From the NCBI RefSeq assembly GCF_000189635.1, contig NW_002476418.1, forward strand, positions 62,001-126,000: a DNA stretch of 64,000 nt. The letters run 5' to 3'. Shown piece by piece: positions 49,448-53,466 of this stretch. A program made the position numbers and the translations under genes. The notes under the pieces were generated by a model, which worked only from the letters and a program-made list of their open reading frames with translations, did not search any database and had not been told where the DNA came from. Each line of letters opens with the position of its first letter. The first letter of the stretch is position 1. The DNA comes from Tetrahymena thermophila SB210. Its lineage: Eukaryota; Ciliophora; Oligohymenophorea; Hymenostomatida; Tetrahymenidae.

Positions 49448-51121
49448 ACAGAATAAATATTAAAATTATTAGGTCAATCAATCAATCTCTTTTATATTCT
49501 ATCCTTCTTTTGTTACCTATATTAAAGTTATTAATGATGTTTAAAATAAAGAATAATTAATTATTAGTTAATTTATCAATTAAAAAATTTTGTTTAATAA
49601 TCTTTTCATCTATTCATATCTCATTCACTTTACCCTCATTCTTCCTTAATTCTTTCTAATTATTTTTTCTATAAAATAGCTTGTCAATAAATAAATAAAC
49701 AATCCACCAAGCATGAGTATTTCATCTGTTGAATGAATGGATTAGCAATCAATTAATCATTTATTTTTTTTTATCAAATTTATTGTAGCAATTAATTAGC
49801 AAATCAAAACTTACAACACTTCTTTTTAAATAACTACTTGGTTTTATTTATTAAATCCTTCTATTTCTTTACTTTGATTATATAATTTTATAAATAAAAA
49901 TCATTTTAAAGTTAATAATTTACATAATATTGGTATTTTAATTTAACTCTTTTGTTTTATAAGAGAAAAAACTATAGTAGATCATTTATACCGTATTTCT
50001 TCAAGGCAAATGGCGAATCTAAAAGGTATATGAATAATGGTGAATTTCAATTATTCACTATAGAAATTGATTGCCCTAAAATCCTTGTATTTTTTTTTGG
50101 CTACCCCACTTCAGAAAATTTGGCTAAATTTAAAATTTTTGATGTAAATAAATTACTTATTTTTAAAATTATTATTTATTAAATTATTAATTATAATCCT
50201 ATTATAAAATATAAAAATCATATTTTTAATAAATAAAAAATCTATTTCATTATAAGTGGCATCCCAACCACGAAATTTTTGTATGGCATTTTGCTATAAT
50301 TAGATACATATATTATAAATATTAAATACTAGAATTTTTTCAAATATGACTAAATAACTGGCCATCTCTAATTCTTACTCTTTTTTAAGTATTTGTTTTA
50401 AATACAAATATTAAGATTAAATAATTTTTGTTAAATTAATTTTCTGTGATATCTATCTCTTCATAAAACCAAATATATAAATTAATATTTGATAATTAAT
50501 TAATTATTATATTTTATTTGTTTTTTTTATCCATTTGTAATTAATTAAATTCCATAAGTTGCTTACTATTCAATAATTTTGAAAAAATAAATAAATGATG
50601 TAATAGATTAAATATTATAAAAAATTAAAAGAAGTAATTATTAATTTTTTTATTAATATCCTTTATATTTATATAAATTAATAAAAAAAGTTTTTAAACT
50701 CTTAACTTATATCTCATTAGGTTCTCCATATTAATCTAATGTATATTTTATTAATTAATACTATTTTTATTATTATTAATATTTTTATATATTTAGCTAT
50801 GTTAACTTAATTTTCATTTCAATTTTTAATTAATTATTATTCATTTTTTATTATTTTTTAATATTAAAACTTACACTTAATAAGAGCAGTTTATTTGTTT
50901 TGGATTGTAATATTTTTAACTATAAAAGTTGATATAAAACATTAAATCTCTTTTAATTTATTTGATTTATTTTCCTTTTTCTTTTTATTGTGATTTTTTT
51001 TTTTTTCATTCTTTGTTAATTTTACTAATTATTAATTAATCTTATTATTTCATATTTTTTCTTCAATTTTTCCTTTGAATTAACTATTTAATAGTATATT
51101 TTTTCTTCAATATTTAAAAAG
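49448..51121 (+). other. Intergenic region upstream of the LRR array
   Basis: About 1.7 kb of AT-rich DNA. It holds one short coding-like frame (49952-50182, listed separately) and, from about 50880, a copy of the LRR intron sequence (GCAGTTTATTTGTTTTGGAT) that shows the array once extended further left. The 5' exons of the LRR gene were not found here. Confidence 0.5.
49952..50182 (+). CDS. Small unrecognised frame, possibly an exon
   Basis: A 76-codon frame with more balanced composition than its surroundings (for example FKANGESKRYMNNGEFQLF). It matches no family I know. It could be an exon of the LRR gene to its right, a relic, or chance; a TAAG acceptor-like site directly precedes AGAAAAAAC within it. 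Confidence 0.2.
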   Translation: MFYKRKNYSRSFIPYFFKANGESKRYMNNGEFQLFTIEIDCPKILVFFFGYPTSENLAKFKIFDVNKLLIFKIIIY

Positions 51122-53466
51122 TAGCAATTAAATTGGTGACGAAGATGCATCAGGCTTAGGTACTGCTTTAGCAAATTGCATTAATCTCTAAAATTTGACA
51201 CTTGAGCTTGGGTAAAAACAGTTTATTTGTTTTGGATTGTGATATATTTTTAATTATAAAAACTAATTTAAAACAATAAAGCTCATTTTTCTTTTTATTG
51301 TGCTTGCTTTTTTGTTCTTTCTTTGTTAATTTAACTCATCATTTTATTTTCAACTTTTGCTTTTATTATTAATTAATTAATCTTATTATTTTATATTTTT
51401 TCTTCATTTTTTCCTTCTAATTAAAATTTAATGATATATTTTTTCTTCAATATTTAAAAAGTTACAATAAAATTGGTGACAAAGGTGCATCAGGCTTAGG
51501 TTCTTCTTTAGAAAATTGTATTAATCTCTCAAATTTGAAACTTGATCTTAGGTAAAAACAGTTTATTTGTTTTGGATTGTGATATTTTAAACTATAAACA
51601 AAAAAGCTTTTTTTTCTTTTTCTTTTATTGTGCTTGCTTTTTTTTGTTCTTTGTTTACTAATTTAACTCATAATTTAATAAAAAATTTTGCTTTTATTAT
51701 TAATTAATCTTATAATTTCATATTTTTTCCTACTAATAAACTATTTAATGATATATTTTTTCTTCAATATTTAAAAAGTTCCAATAAAATTGGTGACAAA
51801 AGTGCATCAGGCTTAGGTTCTGCTTTAGCAAATTGCATTAATCTATAAAATTTGACACTTGAGCTTGGGTAAAAACAGTTTATTTGTTTTGGATTGTGAT
51901 ATATTTTTAATTATAAAAACTAATTTAAAACAATAAAGCTCTTTTTTTTTTCTTTTTATTGTGCTTGCTTTTTTTTGTTGTTACTTTGTTAATTTAACTC
52001 ATCATTTTATTTCCAACTTTTGCTTTTATTATTAATTAATTAATCTTATTATTTTATATTTTTTCTTCATTTTTTCCTTCTAATTAAATATTTAATGGTA
52101 TATTTTTTCTTCAATATTTAAAAAGTTTCAATTAAATTGGTGATAGAATAGAATAGAAATACTCGCACATATAAATGCACTCAGAATACAACTTAAAAAT
52201 TAATTTTTATAATGTTTATATATTTATTTATTTAATTATGTATTTATAGTTAGAAGCTATTATCGAATTATTTTAAATTCACCAATTTTTAAATAATATA
52301 CAGCGTATCAGTGGTATGCTTTAGCTCGTTTATTGCGTTTATCTCGTTTATTTTTACATGGAATTTTTCGAAATAAAGGGGGCGGTATAGGATTCGAACC
52401 CCCGATATCACTGCTAAGACCCTCCGACTCGCCCACTCGAGCCGCTTAGCCCTTCTTAATTTGGTGATGAAGGTGCATCAGGCTTAGGTTCTGCTTTAGC
52501 AAAGTGCATTAATCTCTCAATATTGACACTTAAGCTTGGGTAAAAACAGTTTATTTGTTTTGGATTGTGATATATTTTTAATTATAAAAACTAATTTAAA
52601 ACAATAAAGCTCTTTTTTCTTTTTCTTTTTATCGTGCTTCTTGCTTTTATTGTTCTTTCTTTGTTAATTTAACTTATCATTTTATTTTCAACTTTTGCTT
52701 TTATCATTAATTAATTAATCTTATTATTTCATATTTTTTCTTCATTTTTTCCTTCTAATTAAAATTTAATGATATATTTTTTCTTCAATATTTAAATAGT
52801 TACAATAAAATTGGTGACAAAGGTGCATCAGGCTTAGGTTCTGCTTTAGTAAATTGCATTAATCTCTCAAATTTGTCACTACATCTTCAGTAAAAACAGC
52901 TTATTTGTTTTGGATTGTGATATATTTTTAATTATAAAACTAATTTAAAACAATAAAGCTCTTTTTTTTCTTCTTTTTATTGTGCTTGCTTTTTTTTGTT
53001 ATTTGTTTGTTAATTTAACTCATCATTTTATTTTCAACTTTTGCTTTTATTAATAATTAATCTTATTATTTCATACTTTTTCTTAATTTTTTCCTTCTAA
53101 TTAACTATTTAATGAAATATTTTTTCTTCAATATTTAAAAAGTAACAATTAAATTAGTGAGGAAGGTGCATCAGGCTTAAGTTCTGCTTTAGAAAATTGC
53201 ATTAATCTCTCAAATTTAACACTTTAGCTTAAGTAAAAACAGTTTATTTGTTTTGGATTGTGATATTTTAAACTATAAAAATGAATATTAAACAAAAAAG
53301 CTTTTTAAATTTATTTGATAGATTATAATTATTTATTTTTTTATCTTTTTTATTGCACTAATGTTATTTTGTTTGTTTGTTAACTTAAGAAATAATTTAT
53401 AATTTAAAAGTTTATTCTATTTGATATTTATTTAAAATTTACATAAATTTTTTATAAAATTTTTAG
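50880..53466 (+). repeat. Tandem duplication of about 330-bp exon-plus-intron units
   Basis: The introns between LRR exons (about 227-260 nt) are near-copies of one another. Each starts GTAAAAACAG(T/C)TTATTTG, has a TTTGGATTGTGATAT block and ends TTTTTTCTTCAATATTTAAA before the acceptor. The duplicated unit is therefore exon plus intron. A leftmost intron copy without its exon (from about 50880) marks the worn edge of the array. Confidence 0.85.

Follow-up and report, generated by a model that had tools for sequence, protein, structure and literature searches.

The window, by which is meant the whole 64,000-nt stretch of Tetrahymena thermophila DNA that was analysed, lies on contig C129 of a 101-Mb, 445-contig assembly, a size in keeping with the macronuclear genome. 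It carries a row of LRR exons, one of which is interrupted by a foreign block, and the features of this row are as follows.

51122..51211, plus strand: intact 90-nt LRR exon of unit 1, TGA-free, beginning SNQIGDEDASGLG
51462..51551, plus strand: intact 90-nt LRR exon of unit 2, TGA-free
51779..51868, plus strand: intact 90-nt LRR exon of unit 3, TGA-free
52126..52539, plus strand: interrupted LRR exon of unit 4, 414 nt from AG to GT
52132..52144, plus strand: target-site duplication on the left, TTAAATTGGTGAT, covering exon nt 7-19 (codons ...I G D)
52145..52158, minus strand: 3' tail of the element made up of short repeats, (ATTCT)n on this strand
52159..52182, minus strand: conserved 3'-end stretch with a potential hairpin, arms ATGCACTC / ATACTCGCACAT and a variable loop
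52183..52351, minus strand: body of the second element (family B)
52350..52351: composite junction of the family B end with the SINE-A head start, 2-nt overlap AT
52350..52455, minus strand: 5' head module of SINE-A, from reference position 320 onwards
52390..52400, minus strand: Pol III B-box-like GGTTCGAATCC within the head
52456..52468, plus strand: right target-site duplication TTAATTTGGTGAT, one mismatch against the left
52800..52889, plus strand: intact 90-nt LRR exon of unit 5, TGA-free
53143..53232, plus strand: intact 90-nt LRR exon of unit 6, TGA-free

When joined, the five intact exons of the window are recognised as LRR_6 in a Pfam search, and intron phase is the same across all five. 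The unit added to the fourth exon, counted from AAATTGGTGAT (52134) to AATTTGGTGAT (52458), comes to 324 nt, a multiple of three with no TGA in the LRR frame, and it is bounded by a 13-nt duplication (52132-52144 and 52456-52468) with one mismatch. The first-pass annotation had proposed an insertion with a target duplication inside one 90-nt LRR exon, and on this point it is borne out. Upstream of the array, a probable decayed LRR unit was also observed at 50860-50940 of the window, with a recognisable intron start (79% identity) and the donor ATAAGAGCAG in place of GTAAAAACAG.

A 39-nt core of the head occurs at 42 places in the genome, all of them exact with three mismatches permitted, while the reversed-pattern control gave none. 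All 42 head loci were read, and in every one the head end adjoins an LRR exon at one and the same point, antisense to the gene. The tail and both duplications accompany the head in 38 of the 42 (hereafter the two-ended copies), and in 37 of these 38 the duplications are exact and 12-14 nt long, the exception being the window copy with its single mismatch. The duplicated 11-mers agree within a locus and vary between loci, with 16 kinds among the 38 copies; the commonest, AAATTGGTGAT, is found in 20, and others include AAATTAATGAT, AAATTGGCTAT, AAATTGATGCA and AAATTCGGGAT. Tail repeat number and 5' ends likewise differ from copy to copy. Such a set of copies could in principle descend from one ancestral insertion that was carried along with the LRR unit by unequal crossing over, with no site-specific targeting. 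LRR arrays are described as recombining (PMC6564038), two loci on contig C50 (L018 and L019), 1447 nt apart, resemble one local duplication, and flank identity reaches 95.9% in the closest pair. However, over the 630 pairs formed by 36 SINE-A loci (left out were the window copy and another whose flanks are short), element identity averages 98.6% (lowest 90.4%) and flank identity 78.4% (highest 95.9%); in addition, 16 different matched 11-mers among 38 copies and different bodies at the same exon point speak against shared descent. Because the elements are so much more alike than their flanks, repeated targeted insertion at one site, and not co-duplication, explains the SINE-A copies in general. 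Co-duplication is accordingly rejected as a general account, for which its probability is very slight indeed, and it can hold for a few copies: some may be mutual duplicates, since certain locus pairs have flanks up to 95.9% alike. The likely local duplicate L018/L019 was retained in the copy counts.

The 3' end of the element is common to several element families. The pattern ATACTCGCACAT-N(2-10)-ATGCACTC occurs at 151 places genome-wide (control 0), so that the search for further copies that the first-pass annotation called for returned 42 places by head core and 151 by shared 3' end; its suggestion of a retroelement in what looks like a macronuclear genome also holds. The tails read among the 151 were 100 listed and 14 from other searches (12 SINE-A copies, L002 and L004, all with the pattern). 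Ninety-seven of the 100 listed tails could be placed at the same exon point, namely 26 two-ended SINE-A copies, 70 by a test of the exon 5' end and L003 by alignment. In this test, 70 of 73 further tails adjoin the 5' end of an LRR exon with no more than 7 substitutions in 28, against 4 of 3000 random window stretches in the control, all four at exactly 8. The three tails that failed comprise L057, which by eye looks like a diverged LRR exon, and the doubtful L110 and L126. Insertion at one position of a multicopy target, a feature of site specificity, is thus seen in 42/42 heads and 97 of 100 listed tails, and the exon-placed copies run antisense to the LRR gene.

These elements differ in their bodies and have in common the 3' end and short-repeat tails with units such as ATTCT, GTAT, ATTCC and ATTCA. 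The arms of the predicted hairpin are constant, and its loop varies in letters and length; the arms served as the search key, and because loci were picked by exact arms their constancy is no evidence of covariation. Folding of three 3' ends reproduced the drawn hairpin in two of them, and the remaining one folded differently. Both duplications surround the interrupted exon in 4 of 33 non-SINE-A loci with fetched flanks (L042, L064, L067 and L088), and the remaining loci look like stubs, which would fit the loss, during development, of the central part of a longer element. Two further short elements, in L042 and L067, occupy the same exon site between exact duplications (TTAAATTGGTGAC and TAAATTAATGAT) and have bodies unlike SINE-A; by eye, a hairpin could form in the 5' part of the one in L042.

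Among known systems, REP (Tt.REP) is described in PMC6564038 as a germline-limited non-LTR retrotransposon of T. thermophila that is linked to LRR genes. The likeness lies in an association with 90-bp-exon LRR units and in a conserved 54-bp 3' tail with 169 macronuclear copies, as compared with 151 pattern matches here (PMC6564038). To judge by number, place and association, the stretch 52159-52182 is probably part of that published tail. However, the same source concludes that LRR introns are favoured REP targets and names the target as "LRR gene introns", whereas the join seen here falls at one nucleotide inside an exon. The main text of PMC6564038 contains neither "SINE" nor "tRNA" as whole words, nor "target site", "site-specific" or "insertion site".

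The join splits the I-G-D-E-G-A motif between its GAT and GAA codons, exon nt 19 being the last nucleotide before it. Four nucleotides are enriched at insertion sites over intact exons, namely A18 (85/108 vs 203/340), T19 (84/108 vs 180/340), A21 (36/38 vs 217/340) and A22 (35/38 vs 215/340), each with p < 0.01 after correction for the 30 exon positions compared. G20 (26/38 vs 156/340) and the other 25 positions gave no significance after the same 30-test correction. The right set is the 38 two-ended copies, and the left set of 108 adds to these the 70 tails passing the exon 5'-end test, so that it leans consensus-like. The fetched loci supplied the comparison set of 340 different intact LRR exons of 90 nt. 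Sites without an insert therefore exist, which supports the insertion proposed by the first-pass annotation. The target stretch itself, with up to three mismatches, recurs at 2075 places, the right-hand sides of insertions among them; because the duplication restores the target stretch on that side, vacant sites are fewer than 2075.

The block in the window has a more involved structure. Positions 52126-52351 match family B in L002 at 97%, positions 52350-52537 match SINE-A and its exon in L005, also at 97%, and the two parts meet at 52350/52351 with a 2-nt overlap, AT. By a 28-nt pattern, family B occurs at four places in the genome, the window copy included. Judged by its sequence, the block is a composite in which a SINE-A head is joined to the 3' part of this four-copy family, rather than one intact SINE. 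One route to such a composite is a template switch, in which reverse transcriptase passes from the RNA of the second element to that of SINE-A during a single insertion. The overlap at the junction and the near-perfect flanking duplication are both in keeping with this. However, four other copies are head-only, with no tail within 900 nt (L010, L027, L071 and L074), and these leave SINE-A at reference positions 320, 324, 325 and 345, the window copy doing so at 320, a clustering that a random switch would not predict; the mismatch in the window duplication is a further point against it, and a template switch is on balance rather unlikely. Because the window head breakpoint coincides with those of other head-only copies, a deletion or developmental-elimination junction is favoured over an intact insertion, and since different partners have the head boundary in common, the junction may lie at a roughly constant distance from where the element ends. 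Removal of REP bodies as IES with retention of the 54-bp tail has been reported (PMC6564038). A composite could also arise from two successive insertions, the duplication left by the first serving as fresh target for the second, followed by loss of the middle. The right duplication does still hold a usable target and the site is common to different families; however, a two-element tandem was not noticed in a non-systematic look at the copies read, and the outcome would be hard to tell apart from elimination, so that we regard successive insertions as unlikely and continue to favour the deletion or elimination junction.

The first-pass annotation described the block as SINE-like and tRNA-derived, and the two halves of that description fared differently. 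The SINE-A element is short and multicopy (42 head-core copies) with target duplications, exact and 12-14 nt long in 37 of the 38 two-ended copies; in size, copy number, duplications and the variability of its tails it resembles a SINE, and on these features it may be called SINE-like. A tRNA origin, however, did not find the same support. The head contains a perfect B box, GGTTCGAATCC; an A-box consensus was not found in it, ARAGORN called no tRNA in the head at the default or the 80% threshold, and the tRNA model was absent from Rfam matches to the element up to an E-value of 10. A call of the head by ARAGORN at the 60% threshold was discarded as empty, since 310 "tRNAs" were called in the window at that setting too. 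The predicted RNA fold of the head is no better than that of shuffled sequences (z -0.04). A pattern running from CGAGTGG to GGTTCGAATCC occurs at 70 places in the genome, 42 of which are the heads. Among the 41 of these 70 places that were listed, there are 24 heads, 15 tRNA-Ser-like sequences, which we take to be tRNA-Ser, and two head-like sequences. These last, at G000:C37:115510-115565 and C121:40441-40489, are tRNA-like, lie outside the 42 heads and are possible relatives or a source of the head.

The first-pass annotation had further attached weight to the open reading frame and proposed that the LRR gene could be translated straight through the element, the insertion being an intact SINE whose frame remains open and which adds 108 codons to the LRR protein. 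In favour of this reading are the 324-nt length and the lack of an in-frame TGA. However, the probability of no TGA in 108 codons is ~0.36 for the composition of the window insert and, with a factor of 1/3 for length, falls to ~0.12, so that the open frame of the window copy is unremarkable. Across the 38 two-ended copies, the added lengths leave remainders of 0, 1 and 2 on division by three in 11, 11 and 16 cases (p 0.52), or in 11, 10 and 15 (p 0.56) of the 36 that are left when L014, with 100 N in its insert, and the likely local duplicate L019 are set aside. Only 4 of the 38 are free of TGA in the LRR frame, and the window copy alone (1/38) is both in frame and TGA-free. Selection for an open frame is therefore rejected, the proposal that the frame matters is not upheld, and translation through a block that is itself a composite seems improbable. 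When the insert was translated and searched with Pfam, the sole match was weak (E 0.0051, with 16.8 bits where the cut-off is 28.1) and was dismissed as chance.

Taken as a whole, these observations favour a model in which non-LTR-type retroelements of T. thermophila integrate at a single position within the 90-nt LRR exon and the window copy is a composite remnant, a reading to which we assign a probability of about 0.78. The model proposes that the LRR sense strand would be nicked at GAT|GAA by an endonuclease, for which the germline-limited LINE REP is the most likely source, that the shared 3' end would prime reverse transcription there, and that SINE-A (42 copies, with a tRNA-like 5' head) may borrow the REP machinery. 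A single RVT_1 match was found in the assembly (G000:C134:182753-183433, with 15 TAA/TAG inside, readable in the ciliate code), as expected where germline-limited REP has been removed, in a search that is insensitive, as TERT, present in the assembly, was not reported by it. The TERT fragment from the assembly matches the PDB chain 6d6v_A, the T. thermophila telomerase enzyme, and is identical to residue 598 after a poorly aligned start, with a 21-residue gap read as an intron; on this match the genome is taken to be that of T. thermophila. Few non-LTR elements have been described in the germline (PMC5182062).

As to the consequences for the host gene, translation through the element is unlikely under this model. 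LRR introns are reported to be phase 2 (PMC6564038), and because each exon is 90 nt between introns of the same phase, skipping of an interrupted exon would be frame-neutral; the target site would be nearly harmless, since skipping would cost one LRR with no frameshift. Alternatively, the element could act as an introner-like intron that is spliced out exactly. The site holds GGTGAT, which includes a GT, and REP remnants are placed inside introns of expressed LRR genes (PMC6564038, S31 legend). However, by reading, there is no AG beside the right duplication where precise removal would need one, and whole-exon skipping accounts for the published gene models more simply, which leaves exact splicing a very poor prospect. 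With skipping of the whole exon, the published intronic REP remnants may be interrupted exons lost together with their two introns.

More tentatively, and at somewhat less than even odds, the LRR exon may be a dedicated landing site for a retroelement community of REP and short families, a safe haven within coding sequence on account of its being skippable, whose same-nucleotide copies would help to drive LRR exon shuffling; because the same nucleotide is occupied in so many exons, the copies would be natural swap points. If true, the exon site would correct the published view of LRR introns as the REP target, its harmlessness would offer a reason why insertions are tolerated, and the copies, which can be counted, would serve as a marker for tests of the mutual shaping of retroelements and LRR arrays in a ciliate with an edited soma. 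Where a retroelement is well known for a strict target, that target is mostly an RNA gene or a telomeric repeat. R1 and R2 in rDNA, for example, combine a strict target in a multicopy gene with several families sharing one site, the target being an RNA gene. It is unusual for the fixed site to lie in a coding exon that expands fast, and the closest case found is that of RHS in trypanosomes, a gene family not known to form an exon array. There, RIME (a SINE) and ingi (a LINE) form a pair using one coding-sequence hot spot of a multigene family in Trypanosoma brucei (PMC7563717), although organism and gene family differ and the likeness drawn here is one of description. Utopia in U2 snRNA genes resembles the present case in its strict target in a multicopy gene and its several families per site, but its target is an RNA gene and the one here a protein-coding exon (PMC4640811). 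Among the literature matches listed, judged by title and the start of the abstract and with subscription papers mostly not covered, there was no report of a fixed exon site or a SINE in Tetrahymena LRR genes; nor, on the same basis among the matches listed, was there one of site-specific SINEs in exons.

Two further observations concern the surroundings of the insertions. For 34 of the 42 head copies a contig end is no more than 50 kb away (median 15.6 kb), against at most 0.44 expected under uniform placement; with small contigs weighing on the count, this does no more than suggest that they lie in chromosome-end or hard-to-assemble regions. In addition, a repeat of ~200 nt at 50101-50330 of the window has full or partial copies at 76-81% identity in L070, L087, L010, L072, L075 and L089, all of them loci fetched for their LRR-exon insertions, and the copy in L010 reaches the SINE-A head boundary.
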